From: Thermoplasmata archaeon
GTDB lineage: Archaea; Thermoplasmatota; Thermoplasmata; Lutacidiplasmatales; UBA184
Length of the DNA: 64,000 nt
Reading direction: 5' to 3'
Assembly: GCA_021819135.1 (NCBI GenBank)
Contig: JAKASE010000001.1
Location: 157,683 to 221,682 of the forward strand
Position 1 is the first letter of the stretch. Every line of letters starts with the position of its first letter. The notes under the pieces are model-generated. The model was not told the DNA's origin. It did no database searches and was given only the letters and a program-made list of their open reading frames with translations. Positions 3,673 to 13,763 of the stretch are shown here, piece by piece. The position numbers and the translations under genes are program-made.

Positions 3673-4845
3673 ATGGGAGGCGAGGAACGGGGGACGCTCG
3701 AGCTGCGGACCGACGGGCGCCGTGCCCCGGTCCGACTGCTCTTCGTCGAGGATCGGGGAGGCTGGTCCGTGGTCCCGTCCGTCCGGGATGCCGAGTGGTT
3801 CTCCCGTGCGGTGCGGGACGGCGGGGTGACGGTGCGTCCGCCGGGAGGAGCGGAGCAGGTCTGCCGGACCGAAGTCGTTCCGGCCGGGCCGGAGTTCGAG
3901 CGGGTGCGGCGGCTCTTCCAGGAAAAGTACGGAGCTTCGATATGGCCGTCCTACTTCGGCCGCGCGACCCTTGCGCTCGCGCTCGATCCCAGCCATCCTC
4001 CGGCTCCGCCCTCCCCGGACCGCCGGCTGGTGGAGGAGTTCGACGCGGCGGCGGGCGGGTACGATGCAGGGGTCGCCTCTCGCCCGGTCGAGCGATACCT
4101 GAAGGAGCGCGTGGCCGAGGTCGTGGAGCGCGCCTTCGTCGATGAGGACCCGATCCTCGAGGTCGGTCCGGGAACGGGGTTCCACACGCTGCGGCTCTTG
4201 GATGCAGGCCATCGTGTCCTTGCGGTCGATGTCTCCCGGAAGATGCTCGAACGGCTCCAGCGCCACGCCGCGGAACGCGGGTCCGACGGACGCCTGGAAG
4301 TGCGCGAAGGCCGCCTCAGGGACCTCAGCGCGCTGCTCGCGGACCGCCCCCCGGGTGCGTTCGGCGGTGCGTTCTCCGCGTTCGGTCCGTTCAACCTCGA
4401 GCCGGAGCTCCGGGAGGCATGCGCCGCGCTCACCCGCCTTGTCGGTCCGAAAGGTCACCTGATCTTCACTTCCCTCAACCGGCCGGGTCTCTTCCCCATG
4501 GTCTGGGAGATCGCCTCCGGGAGCCTCTCGGGGGCATTCCGGCGCACGGCTGCCATGATTCCGGTGGGCGGGGTCCGATATCCTCTCTCCCTCTACGTGC
4601 CGACGATAAAGGGCTGGGACACCTCCCTCTCTCCGGGATTCCGTCGGGAGGCGGTTGGGGCCGTCTCGGTCCTGGCCCCGCCCTTCGACTCCGAGCGATC
4701 GATTCGGTGGCTCGGAACGCGTGGCCTCAGCCGGCTCGGCCGGCTCGACCGTCGCCTTGCCGGTATTCCCGGCTCCTGGGTCGGGGCCGAGTGGATCTTG
4801 CTTCGTTACGTCCGGGGAGACCGATCGGATGTCCATCAGGACTAG
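3673..4845 (+). CDS. class I SAM-dependent methyltransferase with an N-terminal accessory domain
   Basis: 390 residues in two parts. Residues 1-110 form a beta-rich domain beginning RGTLELRTDGRRAPVRLLFVEDRGGWSVVPSV. It looks like a split-barrel flavin/F420-type (DUF385-like) fold, which is a tentative assignment. Residues about 115-385 are a Rossmann methyltransferase with motif I EVGPGTGFHTLRL, motif II VLAVDVSRKML, and a downstream GHLIFTSLNRPG strand. It starts a cluster with GT2-type genes, so the acceptor may be a sugar or lipid, which is inference. GC and codon use match neighbours. Confidence 0.75.
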   Translation: MGGEERGTLELRTDGRRAPVRLLFVEDRGGWSVVPSVRDAEWFSRAVRDGGVTVRPPGGAEQVCRTEVVPAGPEFERVRRLFQEKYGASIWPSYFGRATLALALDPSHPPAPPSPDRRLVEEFDAAAGGYDAGVASRPVERYLKERVAEVVERAFVDEDPILEVGPGTGFHTLRLLDAGHRVLAVDVSRKMLERLQRHAAERGSDGRLEVREGRLRDLSALLADRPPGAFGGAFSAFGPFNLEPELREACAALTRLVGPKGHLIFTSLNRPGLFPMVWEIASGSLSGAFRRTAAMIPVGGVRYPLSLYVPTIKGWDTSLSPGFRREAVGAVSVLAPPFDSERSIRWLGTRGLSRLGRLDRRLAGIPGSWVGAEWILLRYVRGDRSDVHQD

Positions 4846-5000
4846 CGTACCGGATTACGATCGCAACGTGCCGACTCAAGGGTCGTCGGGTCTCCGAGCC
4901 CACGGGAGGTGCCCCACGGAGAGCTCACGCGGCCCCGCCATGCGGAGACGCGATACCCCCGGGGCTCCGTTCCGAACGGCCGGGTAGCGAGGGAAGCCGG

Positions 5001-6029
5001 ATGGATCGGTCGGTCGCCCTTCTGACGTTCGCGCGAAACGACGTGGACGCGGTCATCGACCTGATCGAGGGTCTGCGGGGGGACGTCGACGGGTGCGTGG
5101 TCATCGACAGCTCCTACCCGGAGCAACGGGCGAAACTCCTCCGAGCCCTGCGGGAGCCGCACGAACGGCTCCACGAAGCGCCGCCTGTCGGGGACGTCGA
5201 CCTGCTACGCCCGTACGGGCTTTCGAAGGCGGAGTCGGACTGGGTGCTCCTCCTCGAGAGCGATGAGGCACCCTCACCCGGCCTGCGCGCCCGGCTCCAC
5301 GACCTGGGGAACGTGAATGGCTACATCATCCCCCGGTATGAACGCTCGGCCCGGGGGTACACGTATCACCTCCGTCTCTTTTCCCGGACGGCGGCGACCT
5401 ACTCCGGTCCGAGCCACGCGTACCCGGTCATCCGGGGCCCCACCGGCCGGCTCCCCCGCGAAGAGCATATCGAGCATCGGGCGCCGTCCGGCGCCGAGTT
5501 CTGGTCGAGCGCCGATCGCGCCCGTCGCTACCTCCTCCCCGACACGCTCGAGCGGCCGTACGATGTCTCGTACCTCCGCAACACATTCGGACTCGGACCC
5601 GGTACGTTGGCGACGTACCGTTCCGGTGGGCTGCCGGCGCCGTTGAGGCCCTTGCCCGACCCGATGGTCCGCGTCATGCTCGCGGCCGAGGCGGTTCGGG
5701 AGATACTGACCACGGGCTCCGGGGGGCTCGCCCGGTCCCGATGGGAGCAGGGTAAGGCGCGGCGGCAGTACTGGGCCGCGCTTCCTTCCCCGGAACGTGC
5801 CCGGCTCGCCGCGTGGGCCGCCCGGGTCCGAGAGGAAGGCGGCCTCACCCGGTTCCTCGGCTTCGACCGCCCGGAATACGTCGCGCGCCTCTCGACCCTG
5901 CTGCCCGCCACGCTCGATGGACCGTCCGTGCTCCGCGCCCTCGTGGAATACCGAGCCGGGAGCGGCCGTCCGTGGGACGGAGGGGATGACCTTCCGCTTC
6001 TCCCCGAGTACCGGACGCCCCGTGCGTGA
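5001..6029 (+). CDS. glycosyltransferase family 2-like protein
   Basis: 342 residues. The N-terminus ALLTFARNDVDAVIDLIEGLRG, followed by CVVIDSSYPEQ and later WVLLLESDEAP, follows the GT-A pattern (first Rossmann strand, nucleotide-binding loop, DxD-like ESDE). A helical C-terminal part of about 150 residues has no recognised fold. ATG 5001 is chosen because the preceding open frame is antisense-like and the conserved strand begins right after this ATG. The 3' half lies opposite the reading frame of the convergent membrane-protein gene. Donor and acceptor unknown. Confidence 0.72.
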   Translation: MDRSVALLTFARNDVDAVIDLIEGLRGDVDGCVVIDSSYPEQRAKLLRALREPHERLHEAPPVGDVDLLRPYGLSKAESDWVLLLESDEAPSPGLRARLHDLGNVNGYIIPRYERSARGYTYHLRLFSRTAATYSGPSHAYPVIRGPTGRLPREEHIEHRAPSGAEFWSSADRARRYLLPDTLERPYDVSYLRNTFGLGPGTLATYRSGGLPAPLRPLPDPMVRVMLAAEAVREILTTGSGGLARSRWEQGKARRQYWAALPSPERARLAAWAARVREEGGLTRFLGFDRPEYVARLSTLLPATLDGPSVLRALVEYRAGSGRPWDGGDDLPLLPEYRTPRA

Positions 6030-6903: not shown

Positions 6904-7848
6904 GTGGGCGGCCGGGCTCGCATCGACATCGTCATCCCGACCCGAGACCGCCCCGCGAAGCTCGAGGCACTGCTGGGCGACCTGGAGGCCCAGACCCTCC
7001 CTCCAGCGTCGACCGTGGTCGTCGACGACAGTCGGGGGGGAGGACCGGTCATGTCCGACCACCCCGAGCTCTCGCTCCGCACAGTGCACCTGCCCGAGCG
7101 CGGGTTCATCACCCGGGCGAAGAACCGGGGCGCCCGAGAGGGAACCTCGGAGTTCCTGGCCTTTATCGACGACGACAACCGGGTCCCGCCGAACCTCCTC
7201 GAGTCGCTGGCCCGCTCCCTTGCGGACCGTCCTCGCCGGGTCGCCGTCATGCCGGGCGTGCTCTACCACGCTCGGCCCGACCTCGTCTGGGTCTACGCCG
7301 CGCCGTTCCGACCGGATCGGTGGGAGTTCGAGCTGATCGGCCGGAACCGCCCGAGGGACCCCCGGTGGGAGGGCCGGATCCTCGGGACCGATGCACTCCC
7401 GAACCTCTCCCTCGTGCGCCGCGAGGCGTTCGCGAACGTCGGGGGCTTCGATGAATCGTTCCCGGTGAACAGCTCGGGGGACCTCTGCCAGCGCCTGAAG
7501 CGGGCCGGCGGCGAGGTCGTGGCGGATACGGGAGTCCTCACCCGCCACGACGTCGAGCCGCCCGGGAGCCGTGCGTTCTGGGGGGCGCATTCGGTCCCGG
7601 ACCCGGGACGTACCCGCTACGAGGTCGCGGACTGGTTCCGCTTTCATCGACGCTGGGGACCCCGTCCTCGGGGATTCTCCGCCCTCGCGACCTACCATGC
7701 CCTCGACTTCCTCGTGCCGCTTCTGATCGCGATGATGGTGCGCCCGAGTCCCTCGCTCCGCTCGCTCCTAGGCGCCATCGGCCGGGGGTATCTCGAAGGG
7801 CTCGTGGGCCCTTTCGTCGACGCGCCGACCGCCCCGTTCCGTGCGTGA
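6904..7848 (+). CDS. glycosyltransferase family 2
   Basis: 314 residues, a GT-A fold glycosyltransferase. It begins RIDIVIPTRDRPAKLEALLGDL, followed by TVVVDDSRGGG, a RAKNRGAREGTSEFLAFIDDDNR block carrying the metal-binding DDD, and a GGFDESFPVNSSGDLCQRLKRAG acceptor-side motif. A moderately hydrophobic segment near residue 265 (DFLVPLLIAMMV) may associate with the membrane. The GTG start is used; no ATG lies nearby. It is divergent from the six-helix membrane protein and convergent with the methyltransferase that follows. Together with neighbouring GT2 and methyltransferase genes it suggests surface glycan or glycolipid synthesis. Confidence 0.88.
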   Translation: MGGRARIDIVIPTRDRPAKLEALLGDLEAQTLPPASTVVVDDSRGGGPVMSDHPELSLRTVHLPERGFITRAKNRGAREGTSEFLAFIDDDNRVPPNLLESLARSLADRPRRVAVMPGVLYHARPDLVWVYAAPFRPDRWEFELIGRNRPRDPRWEGRILGTDALPNLSLVRREAFANVGGFDESFPVNSSGDLCQRLKRAGGEVVADTGVLTRHDVEPPGSRAFWGAHSVPDPGRTRYEVADWFRFHRRWGPRPRGFSALATYHALDFLVPLLIAMMVRPSPSLRSLLGAIGRGYLEGLVGPFVDAPTAPFRA

Positions 7849-7906: not shown

Positions 7907-8959
7907 TCACGCGTCCTGCGACCTCGGAGGTCCGGAAGGGCGGGAACCAGGGCCCCGGAACTCGGCCGTCGGCGAAACGTACCGAAGGTCCAGAACCCCC
8001 TCTACACCGTTGCCGCGGAAGCCGCACCGCGCGCACACCGGGTCGTGGTTCTCCTCCCACCCGGAGATCGGAGTCCGGCAGACCGGGCACGCGAAGCGTT
8101 CGGCGTCCCCCTCGGGATCCGGACCCGACCGGCCCGGCTTCTCCAGCACGGCGAAGCGGGCGGGAAAGCCGGGGGCCCGGTGAAGGCCCATGCCCAGTCG
8201 CAGAAAGAACGCCGCGGGGGCCCGGCGCAGCACACGGTACTCCTCGAACCCGGTGCCGAACTCCCCCACCGGACGCAGTCCGGCGCTTCGGGCCACGCCC
8301 TCAAAATCGCACCGCGGCGCGGCGAACAGCGGAAAGGCGTCATGGTCTACCGCGACCCGCCGCCGGGCCCGCGTGACCGGGAACCATCGTTCGTGCGTCC
8401 CGTTCCGCAAGGCGAGTCCGAGGTCGTTCACGATCGTACCCACGGATGGCGTCGGGTTGTACGACACGAGGAAGCGGCCCCCGGGCCGGAGCACCCGTGC
8501 GATCTCCGAGAGCGCCGCCTCCGGTTGGGCGAGGTGGTGATAGACCCTCACCATGGCTCCTCCGGAGAACGATTCCGAGGGGAACGGGAGGTGGAAGAGG
8601 TTCGCGGCGACCCGGGTGAGGGGGACCGGAACCTCCCTCGGGTCCATGCATCGGAGGGCCGAGATATCGAGATCCACCACCGTGACGTGCGATGCGATAC
8701 TCCCCAGGGCCCCGACCAGGCGTCCGTAGCTCGACCCGATGTCGAGCACACGGTCGAGCCGAACTCCGTCGAAGGCACGGGCCACCACGGCCCGTTCGAC
8801 CTCCGTGACCCGGTCCCGTCCCGACCACCGGGACCGGAAATCGTACCGAGAATAGTCGCTCAGCAGCTCCGGTACCTCGGAATGGACGCGGGTGTCCCGC
8901 GTCGGGGCCGCTCCTGGGCTCGGTCCGTCGCTTGCGAACGCGGAGCGATCCGTCGCCAC
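7907..8959 (-). CDS. class I SAM-dependent methyltransferase with C-terminal zinc ribbon
   Basis: 350 residues. The Rossmann core has motif I VLDIGSSYGRLVGAL, an acidic VVDLDISAL motif and the UbiE-like ARVLRPGGRFLVSYNP motif. A C-terminal segment carries a Cys4 ribbon (CPVCRTPISGWEE and CARCGFRG), the reverse of the usual N-terminal position in Trm-like enzymes. GTG 8959 follows a strong GGAGGGAG ribosome-binding site, and the gene lies 23 nt behind the GT2-nucleotidyltransferase fusion, so the two are probably co-transcribed. Substrate unknown. Confidence 0.82.
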   Translation of the reverse strand: MATDRSAFASDGPSPGAAPTRDTRVHSEVPELLSDYSRYDFRSRWSGRDRVTEVERAVVARAFDGVRLDRVLDIGSSYGRLVGALGSIASHVTVVDLDISALRCMDPREVPVPLTRVAANLFHLPFPSESFSGGAMVRVYHHLAQPEAALSEIARVLRPGGRFLVSYNPTPSVGTIVNDLGLALRNGTHERWFPVTRARRRVAVDHDAFPLFAAPRCDFEGVARSAGLRPVGEFGTGFEEYRVLRRAPAAFFLRLGMGLHRAPGFPARFAVLEKPGRSGPDPEGDAERFACPVCRTPISGWEENHDPVCARCGFRGNGVEGVLDLRYVSPTAEFRGPGSRPSGPPRSQDA

Positions 8960-8982: not shown

Positions 8983-10962
8983 TCATCGGTCGACCGGGAT
9001 CCGGGACCCCCGGCGCGAGCCCCCCGCGCTCCCGGGCACGCGGCCATCGAAGTCGTACCCGACCCGCAGCGTATCGAACCGACGGGATTGGAGGGCGAAA
9101 CGATGGAACCCGGTCTGCGTGCGGAACCTCGCGGAGTCGGCGCTCGTCCGCCGGTAGCGCGCGTCCCGGCGTAGACCCGCCAGGTGGAGATAGGTCGCAA
9201 GGAACGGGAAGATGAGCGCGTTCAACGCGCGTATCGCGAGCGGCGCCCGGGTCGGCTCGCAGGGTCCCGGGAACTGCGTGCGCGCGGCGTAGAGGCGGGG
9301 GATCTCGCGACCGATCCAGGGCGTGCGAGCGAGGATCCCCCGGAAGTACGGGTCTCCCTCGAGCATCCGAATCGAAAGGGACTCCCGGGCGAACAGGAAT
9401 CCGGACCCTTCCGTGAACTCCCGATGGGCGGTGGCGTCGTCGAGGACGTAGTTGAAGCAGGGTTCGGGCCGATCCCGGTCCCGGCCGGAGAGCCGGCGAA
9501 GCCGCAGGGTCGCGAAGGCGACCGCGAGGAACCACCAGAGAGCCCCGGTGCGGGTCACGACGAAGAAGTCGAGGTCGTCGTCGACCTCGGGCTCGCCGTA
9601 CGCGGTGGACCCCGTGATCCCGATGCACCGCAGCCAGGGCCGGGTCCGGGCGAGGTCCGCATGCACGAGCCGATGCGCGGACTCTCGGTACCGGAGCGCC
9701 CGGCTCCGTCGTGGATCCACCGACACGGGCCCGAGGTCCGGAGAGACCAGCCGTCCGTTCACCAGCTGCCCCGCCTCGGGGTGATCGGAGATCCACCGGA
9801 CGAGCTCCCCCGGTGTGCGCGGGGCCTCCGGTGGCAGCAGTTCCACCAGCTCTTCGACCGCGACCCCGGTCCCGAACCAACGCGCCGCCTCCACGAGAGT
9901 GCGCAGGCGGCGCTCAAAGGTCGTCGGCGCCGGAGCGGGCGGCGGGACAGGAGGCACTTCCGGGTGCGTCCCCGGACGGTCCGGTGCGGACGAGCCGGTC
10001 CGCTCGATCCGTTCCCAGCGGACGTGGTCCTTGGCGGGCGGGATCCGGTCCCAGCCCGCCAGGGCCCGGGACGCGAGCTCCGCCGCGGCGAGGCTGGCGA
10101 AGCGAAGGAGGCCAGCGGGCTCGCGGGAAACCGACCGTCGGATCACGGCTCCGGCGGCCCGCGGCTGGCGTAGCGCGTAGTCGGCGAGAGTGCTCGGGGA
10201 CGCTCCCAGCAACGCGGTCACCTGCCGGTTCCCGACGTGGATCCGTCGTCGCTGGCGCAGATGGTCGCGCAGGTTCGATGGGACCTCGATCGTGACCTGG
10301 GCGTCCTCCGCGTACAGCCGCGGGCAGCCGCGCTGCGCCAGCCAGACGGCAAGGTACGAGCCGTCATTGATGACCCCTTCCGGGAGGGGTGGGGCGGGCC
10401 CGAGACTGACGAGGAGGAGCTCGTCGGAGAGATGGGCGCCGCCCCCCTCCTGCTGAAGCTGTCGGTGGAAATCATGGTGGAGCTGCCACATCAGCTCGAG
10501 CGGGCCGTTCCATCGTGCCTTCCCGGCCGGGCCGGGGACCGGACGGGCCATGACCGCGTACGGTGCCGGGCGGTCGCGCGCGACGTCGAGGAGTTCCCGC
10601 ACCGCTCCGGGCTCGGCCCGGGCGTCCCCGTTCAGGAGCGCGAGCGCCTGCCCCCTCGCGGTCCGTACCACCGTCCGGATCGCCTCGGACTTTCCGTGAC
10701 GGTCGAGTTCCTCGACGACCGCCACCCTCGGGTCTTCCCGCGCGAGCCGCCGGGCGTTCTCCGCCGTGCGGTCGGTGCACCCGCTCGCGACGACCCAGAT
10801 CCGGCTCCAGCGGACCCCGTCGGGGAGGTCCTGGTCGAGGAGGGACCGAACGGCGCTCTCGATCGTCCGCTCCTCGTTGTGGGCGACCACTCCGCCGGCG
10901 AGCTCGAACTCCGCGGGGCCGGAGGCCGGGACCGTCTGAAGCATCCCCGGTTCTCCCCGCAT
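8983..10962 (-). CDS. GT2 glycosyltransferase fused to a nucleotidyltransferase-like domain
   Basis: 659 residues. Residues about 15-330 are a GT2 domain: AGGVVAHNEERTIESAVRSLL, VVASGCTDRTAE, and a membrane-proximal HLRQRRRIHVGNRQV motif typical of processive GT2 enzymes. A Pro-rich linker near 330-350 leads to a small helical domain, then about residue 455 onward a polymerase-beta-like nucleotidyltransferase signature GSTAYGEPEVDDDLDFFVV (GS, then DxD). Hydrophobic segments near 475 and 590 may anchor it. Such nucleotidyltransferases usually occur as separate genes near sugar or lipid loci, so covalent fusion is notable. The role is inferred: coupling of activation and transfer. Confidence 0.75.
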   Translation of the reverse strand: MRGEPGMLQTVPASGPAEFELAGGVVAHNEERTIESAVRSLLDQDLPDGVRWSRIWVVASGCTDRTAENARRLAREDPRVAVVEELDRHGKSEAIRTVVRTARGQALALLNGDARAEPGAVRELLDVARDRPAPYAVMARPVPGPAGKARWNGPLELMWQLHHDFHRQLQQEGGGAHLSDELLLVSLGPAPPLPEGVINDGSYLAVWLAQRGCPRLYAEDAQVTIEVPSNLRDHLRQRRRIHVGNRQVTALLGASPSTLADYALRQPRAAGAVIRRSVSREPAGLLRFASLAAAELASRALAGWDRIPPAKDHVRWERIERTGSSAPDRPGTHPEVPPVPPPAPAPTTFERRLRTLVEAARWFGTGVAVEELVELLPPEAPRTPGELVRWISDHPEAGQLVNGRLVSPDLGPVSVDPRRSRALRYRESAHRLVHADLARTRPWLRCIGITGSTAYGEPEVDDDLDFFVVTRTGALWWFLAVAFATLRLRRLSGRDRDRPEPCFNYVLDDATAHREFTEGSGFLFARESLSIRMLEGDPYFRGILARTPWIGREIPRLYAARTQFPGPCEPTRAPLAIRALNALIFPFLATYLHLAGLRRDARYRRTSADSARFRTQTGFHRFALQSRRFDTLRVGYDFDGRVPGSAGGSRRGSRIPVDR

Positions 10963-12179: not shown

Positions 12180-13088
12180 TCATTCTTCCTCCGTATCGAA
12201 CACCAGGTCGGACGGTCGCTTCCGGATCCATCGGGCCCCGTAGGCCACGGCGGCGCTGAGCCCGGCCCCGGCACCGACCACCAGGACATAGTCGATCAGC
12301 GGCAGGGAAGCGGGAACCGGTGGGATCGTAACCGCGAAGTACCCGGAGTACGCGAGCGAGAGGACCTCTGGGGACGAGGAAGCGATCATGATCCCAATGG
12401 TCGCGTTCGACGGAGTGACCCGCATCGAGGAGGTCGTGTCCACGGTCGTCCGGGTCCCGTTGTCCCAACCGACCTCGGCGGTCGAGGACGGGATCCACGA
12501 CTCCAGGATCCCCTCGTTCACGTTGGACCGGCTCGCGACCGTCGGGTCCGAGGTGGACCCTCCGCTCAGATGCTCCGCGCTGGGGTGGCTGGGCCAGAGG
12601 GAAAGGTCGAAACCGAGCGAGTCGCCGGGGGCGACCCGCGACCAGTTCGAAAGCAGGACAGACAGCGTGACCTCGTTCGACGGGGCACCGCCGGAGGGGC
12701 TCTCCTCCCCGAGGTCAAAGTCCACGCGGACATCGACCGACCCGTTCCGGGCGTCGACGCCCCCGGCCGCGACGAGCGACGCGTGGGCCGTGTATCCCTC
12801 GTCGTAGCCGGCCCCCCCGCTCGCGTTCTCCACGGTCCAGGTCAATGGAGCGCCCTGGGTCGTCCCGACCACCGTGCCGCCCGGCGAGCGCTCCGCGATG
12901 GTCCCGAGGAGCCCGGCGAGCCCGGAGTCGGGCCGTGCCAGTGCGGAGACATCGACCCCTGGACTGCTCGCGCTGAAGCGGCAGAGCACGACGCCGTTCG
13001 TCCACGACGCCCCTGGGGTGCTCCAGCCGGCCACGGAAGCGGCCCCGACGGCGGGGGCGAATGGGAGCAGGATCAGGGCCAGGGCCAC
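12180..13088 (-). CDS. secreted surface protein with C-terminal membrane anchor
   Basis: About 302 residues. The N-terminal hydrophobic stretch ALALILLPFAPAVGA looks like a signal peptide. A beta-rich Ser/Thr/Gly exodomain follows with sequons (NAS, NGS, NWS, NGT, NAT), then a C-terminal helix (IDYVLVVGAGAGLSAAVAYG) and an RKR stop-transfer tail. GTG 13088 is the only ordinary start codon, but the frame is open upstream and continues with AALVLAGA, which would lengthen the signal-peptide core. A TATA-like AAAAAG lies near 13194, so the true start may be upstream on a rare codon. The C-terminal anchor resembles archaeal S-layer-like exoproteins. Function unknown. Confidence 0.65.
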   Translation of the reverse strand: MALALILLPFAPAVGAASVAGWSTPGASWTNGVVLCRFSASSPGVDVSALARPDSGLAGLLGTIAERSPGGTVVGTTQGAPLTWTVENASGGAGYDEGYTAHASLVAAGGVDARNGSVDVRVDFDLGEESPSGGAPSNEVTLSVLLSNWSRVAPGDSLGFDLSLWPSHPSAEHLSGGSTSDPTVASRSNVNEGILESWIPSSTAEVGWDNGTRTTVDTTSSMRVTPSNATIGIMIASSSPEVLSLAYSGYFAVTIPPVPASLPLIDYVLVVGAGAGLSAAVAYGARWIRKRPSDLVFDTEEE

Positions 13089-13235: not shown

Positions 13236-13763
13236 TCACACGCGGAAGATCTCCGACCAGGTGCTCAGGAATCGCTCGATCCACTCGTCGGAGAAGCGCG
13301 GGCGGCTGGCGACGACCCATCGAGCGATGCGTTCCGGGTCCACCGGATGGAACGTCCGCAATCGGCCCCGTCGCTTTCCGCAGATCACCCCGGCCGCGAG
13401 CAAGCGACGCAGGTGTACGGAGAGACGGCCCGCGCTCAGGCCGGTCCGCGCCTCGAGGTCCGGCACGGTGAGGCCCGGGGTTTCGAGGAGCGCGACCAGG
13501 AGCCGTCGGGCCGAGGCCGAACGCGTGATCCCGAGCAGCCGGCGGTCGACGGGAGGGACCTCCGAGGCGAAATAGCGGTCCTGGTGAGATCCCCGCTCCC
13601 GGAACACGAGCTGGGCGTGGGTGAGCCGGTCCAGGTGGTAGACCGTCTCTCCCCAGCCGGTTCCCGCGGCGCGTTGGGCCTCCCGCGCGCCCAGGCCCGG
13701 GGCCCGTCGGACCGCCTCGTAGATCCGGCGCCGGGTCTCGAGCGACAGGAGGTCGTCGGCCAT
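13236..13763 (-). CDS. double winged-helix transcriptional regulator (ArsR/MarR-like)
   Basis: 175 residues containing two consecutive winged-helix units. Residues about 5-60 (SLETRRRIYEAVRRAPGLGAREAQ, then LDRLTHAQLVFR) and about 78-140 (SASARRLLVALLETPGLTVPDLEARTGL, then LLAAGVICGKRRGR) each read as HTH plus wing. Tandem wHTH proteins of this shape are common in Thermoplasmata and haloarchaea. The start ATG is 3 nt after the stop of a small membrane-protein gene, suggesting coupled expression and perhaps membrane sequestration of the regulator (inference). Target genes may include the surrounding surface-protein genes. Confidence 0.82.
   Translation of the reverse strand: MADDLLSLETRRRIYEAVRRAPGLGAREAQRAAGTGWGETVYHLDRLTHAQLVFRERGSHQDRYFASEVPPVDRRLLGITRSASARRLLVALLETPGLTVPDLEARTGLSAGRLSVHLRRLLAAGVICGKRRGRLRTFHPVDPERIARWVVASRPRFSDEWIERFLSTWSEIFRV

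Follow-up and report, generated by a model that had tools for sequence, protein, structure and literature searches.

Within the 64,000-nucleotide stretch of DNA analysed here (the window; host genome of 2.2 Mb, 91% complete), one open reading frame joins a GT2 glycosyltransferase (GT) to a nucleotidyltransferase (NTase) domain. This 659-aa fusion is real, and it is one arrangement of a wider association of GT, NTase and methyltransferase that lies beyond a single-sequence view. The phylum-wide association, and not the fusion alone, is the larger finding, and it points to an undescribed mode of cell-surface glycan decoration. The fusion is assembled from known folds:

8983..10962, minus strand: fusion CDS, 659 aa, GT2 + linker + winged-helix-like region + Pol-beta NTase (ORF and translation)
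10015..10911, minus strand: GT2 domain, aa 18-316 (PF00535; PDB 6yv7 profile and Foldseek matches)
9913..10014, minus strand: Pro-rich linker, aa 317-350 (composition; pLDDT <50 for aa 323-341)
9733..9912, minus strand: small alpha/beta domain preceding the NTase, winged-helix-like (predicted helix/strand order)
9043..9717, minus strand: predicted Pol-beta-type NTase domain, aa 416-640 (AF2 model, Foldseek, PF01909 in homologues)
9556..9612, minus strand: NTase signature GSTAYGEPEVDDDLDFFVV, aa 451-469 (G451, S452, D463 and D465 invariant, 76/76)
9436..9459, minus strand: third core strand CFNYVLDD, aa 502-509 (C502 invariant; D508 is D/E in 69/76)

The ORF contains no internal stop. Its GC3 is 0.82–0.93 in every 60-codon block, the junction included, and the frame is therefore coding through the GT2/NTase junction. 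Uninterrupted fusions were also found in about 23 homologues. An earlier note, made from the sequence of this DNA alone, had described a GT2-NTase fusion in one polypeptide; the intact ORF, the fused homologues and the continuous GC3 bear this out, and the two motifs that it quoted are both found in the ORF.

The GT2 domain matched PF00535 with an E-value of 2.5e-17 and 63.7 bits, above the curated cut-off of 23.3, and the same family was matched by 37 of the 38 GT homologues. Residues R88, G90, K91, D113, E181, N199, D200, Q237 and R240 are invariant in these 38 sequences. The family signature, composed of the conserved catalytic/metal acids (D113, N199-D200) and Q-x-x-R (Q237, R240), is thus present; the Q-x-x-R motif is all that suggests the "processive" character previously attributed to the domain. 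The nearest solved structure is that of PcManGT (PDB 6yv7), detected both by PDB profile (E 2.9e-18) and by Foldseek with the full-length model (E 2.9e-11). Candidate membrane helices are of borderline hydrophobicity, with median KD-19 values of 1.52 and 1.47 (1.55 and 1.05 in the window protein), which counts against the membrane attachment proposed below. The domain would be an active glycosyltransferase, and its putative donor and acceptor are considered below.

Between W316 and R351, the linker contains 10 prolines in 34 residues, in agreement with the Pro-rich linker first noticed. In 21 fused proteins it measures 27–36 residues and carries 2–10 prolines, but its sequence is not conserved. 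As to whether linker and domain order are kept, a check that the earlier note suggested, the order and the presence of a linker are constant and the linker sequence is not. The full-length AlphaFold model (pLDDT 90.2, pTM 0.68), in which the GT2 and NTase domains are each predicted with high confidence, shows a disordered linker at aa 323-341; given this disorder and the pTM value, the placement of the GT2 and NTase domains relative to each other is not established by the model. The linker is followed by a C-terminal unit (aa ~348-640) with a winged-helix-like part and the NTase. We read the small alpha/beta domain preceding the NTase as winged-helix-like from the order of its predicted elements (helices 348-362, 369-375 and 384-393, strands 399-401 and 404-406). 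NTases of family f19 (L059-L065, L069, L071) are shorter, about 210–250 aa, and do not have this N-terminal part.

No Pfam match was obtained at E<=0.1 for the NTase domain of the window protein. Among 42 NTase homologues, 27 matched PF01909 (NTP_transf_2) at E<=1, with a best value of 1.1e-5, and 12 matched Polbeta (PF18765). The sole PDB profile match of the domain was 1wot (E 0.0071). An AF2 model of aa 340-659 was computed with 76 sequences (pLDDT 92.9, pTM 0.89), and its top Foldseek PDB matches are Pol-beta-type NTases (MNT, 2rff, TUT4, AadA, HalB, KNTase, Tam41). The E-values are weak, all at or above 0.011, and nearly all matches belong to one superfamily. According to this model, the C-terminal domain has the Pol-beta NTase fold, as anticipated by the earlier note. 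The hG[GS] and D-x-D motif of the superfamily is present, and G451, S452, D463, D465 and C502 are invariant across the 76 homologues. No acid is found at the centre of the third core strand, where C502 and N504 sit; D508, at a position that is acidic in 69 of the 76 sequences and hence not invariant, is a candidate third carboxylate. The NTase and GT catalytic signatures are both kept despite divergence to 17–47% identity. Searches of PHROGs and NCBIfam gave no meaningful family for the NTase, NCBIfam having no model for it, the viral structure library returned weak NTase matches only, and two queries found no plasmid homologue.

Lutacidiplasmatales are acid-soil archaea. In this order of the Thermoplasmatota, the NTase gene was detected in 24 of the 25 good genomes of the genus, which counts 78 species in the genome collection. 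Across the phylum it was found in 98/395 genomes at E<=0.001, many weaker matches being probably other NTases. The arrangement of GT and NTase was compared at 80 NTase loci: 22 are fused, 17 have the NTase then the GT on the same strand, 14 are convergent, 3 have the GT then the NTase, 2 have the genes far apart, and 22 show no GT within the available stretch. One more fusion, the 23rd (L038), is truncated at the end of its contig. The domain order in fused proteins is always GT then NTase, as stated at the outset, and the fusion is found in about half of the order Lutacidiplasmatales, in line with the phylum Thermoplasmatota proposed for a survey. NTase homologues also accompany GT2 at most of the order's loci, so that neither of the two refuting outcomes named in the earlier note was observed. 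The GT adjoins the NTase in further families of the class as well (f11, f19). In genome G047 (family f11; L048:9259-11124), only one stop codon separates GT and NTase, which share a reading frame, and the arrangement looks like a fusion recently split or about to form.

In a tree of GT and NTase together, 17 of 21 fused proteins cluster, that of the window among them (SH-aLRT 97). The tree requires four changes in total, and the test does not reject one common origin of the fusion (p-AU 0.193). When genome contigs were scanned with a tighter alignment (A3), a scan in which bacterial sampling was poor, 44 loci were obtained; their labels read Thermoplasmata or Euryarchaeota archaeon, the one exception being L151 ("bacterium"). 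Loci in named records are from Thermoplasmata MAGs, including UBA184 and AcS/SubAcS; these are named under Lutacidiplasmatales, the order of the fusion, in a genome paper that mentions neither glycosyltransferases nor nucleotidyltransferases (PMC9287336). Literature searches found no paper on a GT2-NTase fusion of such type.

The genes surrounding the fusion in the window were then compared with those of 53 related loci:

7907..8959, minus strand: SAM methyltransferase MT1 (PF08241, E 6e-16; in 24/53 related loci)
3673..4845, plus strand: SAM methyltransferase MT2 (PF13649, E 7e-12; MT2 profile across the phylum)
6904..7848, plus strand: second GT2 gene (PF00535, E 1.2e-12; homologue in 9/53 loci)
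4875..6029, plus strand: possible divergent GT2 with WVLLLESDE, start approximate (CruG, E 0.051; homologue in 3/53 loci)
13236..13763, minus strand: HTH regulator upstream of the fusion (homologue L114:4336-4863 is HTH_HVO_0163_N, E 7.6e-15)
12180..13088, minus strand: predicted secreted/membrane protein between the regulator and the fusion (no Pfam match; 18/53 loci, mostly fused)

MT1 lies 23 nt downstream of the fusion on the same strand, and this spacing and orientation make an operon likely. C-terminal to its methyltransferase domain, MT1 carries a Cys-x2-Cys ... Cys-x2-Cys pattern (CPVC ... CARC) with the look of a zinc ribbon. Both methyltransferase neighbours that had been noticed are thus confirmed by Pfam. 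The "two more GT2 genes" reported with them are only partly shown, since 6904-7848 is confirmed and the ORF at 4875-6029 has no Pfam match at 0.01 and only the weak NCBIfam CruG match listed above. The HTH regulator is present at 16 of the 53 loci, mostly fused ones. Companions of the GT/NTase pair at these loci are MT2 (41), a GT87-like membrane protein (29), MT1 (24), a further GT2 (9) and GT4 (9). The GT87-like protein (e.g. L125:7185-8699) lies beside the pair, and a search of the window's own genome gave no such gene. Near split gene pairs, two other proteins recur, an SPFH/Band_7 protein (14 loci; e.g. L128:9686-10900) and a PF04185 phosphoesterase (11 loci; e.g. L047:100-1674 and relatives). 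The glycan or glycolipid context proposed earlier is upheld by the recurrence of GT2, GT4, GT87-like and methyltransferase genes nearby.

The partnership with a methyltransferase extends across the phylum. With the MT2 profile, which has one match only within the 64-kb window, 56 of 69 distinct loci were found to have a member of the MT2 family at most 6 kb from the NTase (59/72 before three genomes present twice, L138=L201, L139=L202 and L143=L200, were counted once). The conserved unit is hence GT, NTase and methyltransferase. The f19 enzymes are relatives of the window's MT2 at about 1e-37, those of f42 and f37 at 1e-11 to 1e-8. Its methyltransferase domain is preceded by ~130 residues that are conserved to f19 (3673-4845; homologues L201:6871-8070 and L202:9779-10960); this part matches no Pfam family and has the predicted look of a small beta-barrel, flavin/F420-reductase-like. 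Outside the class, the NTase keeps its adjacent methyltransferase and the other neighbour is a membrane protein, usually a large one of 630–700 aa in f37, f42 and f45. Three of these large proteins were scanned: one matches PMT_2 (8.8e-7), and the other two, without Pfam match, may likewise be of GT-C type. At L192-L198 (f37, f45), the genes for the NTase, the methyltransferase and usually the large membrane protein adjoin or overlap one another, and an NAD-dependent epimerase is often next door. As the methyltransferase is constant and the other neighbour varies, NTase and MT2 look like the older pair, with a glycosyltransferase partner that varies.

These observations could be explained if the fusion is a bifunctional glycan-modifying enzyme working in one pathway with a SAM methyltransferase, a reading to which we give an even chance. 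The N-terminal GT2 would add a sugar to a glycan that is associated with the membrane, probably through a polyprenyl or lipid link. The NTase would then form a phosphodiester on the GT product, with either an NTP as the source of an NMP or a CDP-polyol as the source of a polyol-phosphate, and the partner methyltransferase (MT2, and in many genomes MT1 too) would act in the same pathway. From the domains and their setting we infer catalysis by both of them, the succession of steps, an attachment to the membrane, and the donor and acceptor. The GT4, GT87-like and GT2 genes that recur around the NTase speak for this reading. Against it count the weak Foldseek E-values of the NTase, the third carboxylate at a position that is not invariant and the negative result for a GT87-like gene in the window's genome; nor did the neighbourhood of the pair show a conserved gene for a CDP-polyol synthase or for making any other donor. 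More tentatively, the conserved unit of GT, Pol-beta NTase and SAM methyltransferase may be the basis of a previously undescribed archaeal pathway that decorates a surface glycan or glycolipid with a nucleotide or polyol (possibly methylated) through a phosphodiester link; the fusion would then be one enzyme that both adds a sugar and caps it.

The NTase could instead be a regulator that modifies a protein (the GT, the methyltransferase or some other) by AMPylation or UMPylation, in the way that GlnE modifies glutamine synthetase and MNT AMPylates HEPN toxins. MNT antitoxins, which AMPylate their partner protein, are among the top Foldseek matches, with GlnE at rank 50, and tight gene pairing and fusion would suit an enzyme that carries its own modifier. 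However, the neighbouring enzyme varies (GT2 in the class, an unrelated membrane protein elsewhere) whereas NTase and methyltransferase are constant, so that a pathway step fits better than the modification of one GT. Nor did any conserved feature of a modification site come to light, and we regard regulation as unlikely. The third acid that is not invariant, and a third core strand holding C502 and N504, would agree with a degenerate, non-catalytic domain that binds or scaffolds, by which the GT would be tethered either to the methyltransferase or to its own substrate. Such strict retention of G451, S452, D463 and D465 in 76 divergent sequences, together with the acid mostly kept at position 508, is nevertheless unusual in a dead domain and makes this quite improbable.

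The remaining possibilities have very little probability. Consecutive enzymes are commonly fused, and the NTase might accordingly supply the NDP-sugar donor of the GT2 domain, as implied when the two activities were said to be usually encoded near sugar loci. That statement mixed the Pol-beta NTase (G-S-x10-D-x-D) with sugar-1-phosphate nucleotidylyltransferases, the usual suppliers of NDP-sugars, whose fold and motif are unrelated, and the implied supply is wrong because of this different fold. The domain gave matches to PF01909, through its homologues, and to NTase-fold structures, but to no sugar-1-phosphate nucleotidylyltransferase family or fold in Pfam, NCBIfam or Foldseek, which leaves this idea hardly credible. 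It is equally far-fetched that the NTase replaces a lipid cytidylyltransferase and makes CDP-archaeol like Tam41, a Pol-beta-type enzyme found at Foldseek rank 36, since that match is weak (E 0.21) and CarS (PF01864) is encoded in the window's genome and in every good genome searched (19/19); this candidate was ruled out. Finally, weak PADLOC matches to the candidate families PDC-S09 and PDC-M05A (best 3.7e-6), and MNT and Hailong HalB among the fold matches, could place the pair in a defence or toxin-antitoxin system. Yet the NTase is near-universal in the genus (24/25 good genomes), its partnership with GT and MT2 is mostly stable, and no HEPN or effector gene was recognised next door: the neighbours scanned gave no Pfam HEPN match, and the recognised partners are GT and methyltransferase genes. 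In the one member inspected, the PADLOC match spans ~40 residues around the common motif. The matches being weak and at motif level only, this reading was set aside as highly improbable. Overall, the earlier interpretation is partly supported.

The bifunctional glycan-modifying enzyme that we favour can be compared with known systems. LicD and fukutin-type proteins are the best-known examples of NTase-fold enzymes that act on glycans, and to our knowledge no archaeal glycan NTase physically joined to its own glycosyltransferase has been described. The fusion serves as a "Rosetta stone" that links an uncharacterised Thermoplasmatota NTase family to glycan synthesis; gene order extends this link phylum-wide and adds the methyltransferase, and a concrete function can be proposed for a family that is near-universal in the genus and without NCBIfam model. 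PcManGT, a GT2 mannosyltransferase of Pyrobaculum calidifontis, is an archaeal GT2 like the GT domain of the fusion, to which it is about 20–22% identical, but it is a separate protein without NTase domain. The minimal and aminoglycoside NTases (PF01909; 1wot, 2rff, AadA, kanamycin NTase) share the G-S-x10-D-x-D core and the fold; the fusion's NTase adds a winged-helix-like N-terminal part and a long C-terminal helix, and has no antibiotic or HEPN context. LicD-family phosphotransferases (PF04991), such as CpsC of capsule loci, serve capsule synthesis and are, like the fusion's NTase, NTase-superfamily enzymes in glycan pathways (PMC11666461). In contrast to them, neither the window protein nor any of the 42 NTase homologues matches PF04991, and GT2 fusions are not reported in that study. 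The parallel with FKRP, LicD and aminoglycoside NTases is thus an argument that the domain may work like these enzymes. FKRP, an NTase-fold ribitol-phosphate transferase, moves a polyol-phosphate onto a glycan, and its stem, joined to the NTase-fold domain, resembles the glycosyltransferase ppGalNAcT-10, which provides a precedent for combining a GT-A-like with an NTase domain (PMC6965139). No sequence relation between FKRP and the fusion is shown, and the FKRP stem is said to be without GT activity; FKRP further differs in having a zinc-finger loop and in that its third aspartate (Asp416) is defined (PMC6965139). What FKRP and the fusion have in common is a GT-resembling domain attached to an NTase-fold domain that carries hG[GS] and D-x-D. 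FKRP acts on a glycan (PMC6965139), as the fusion is proposed to do.
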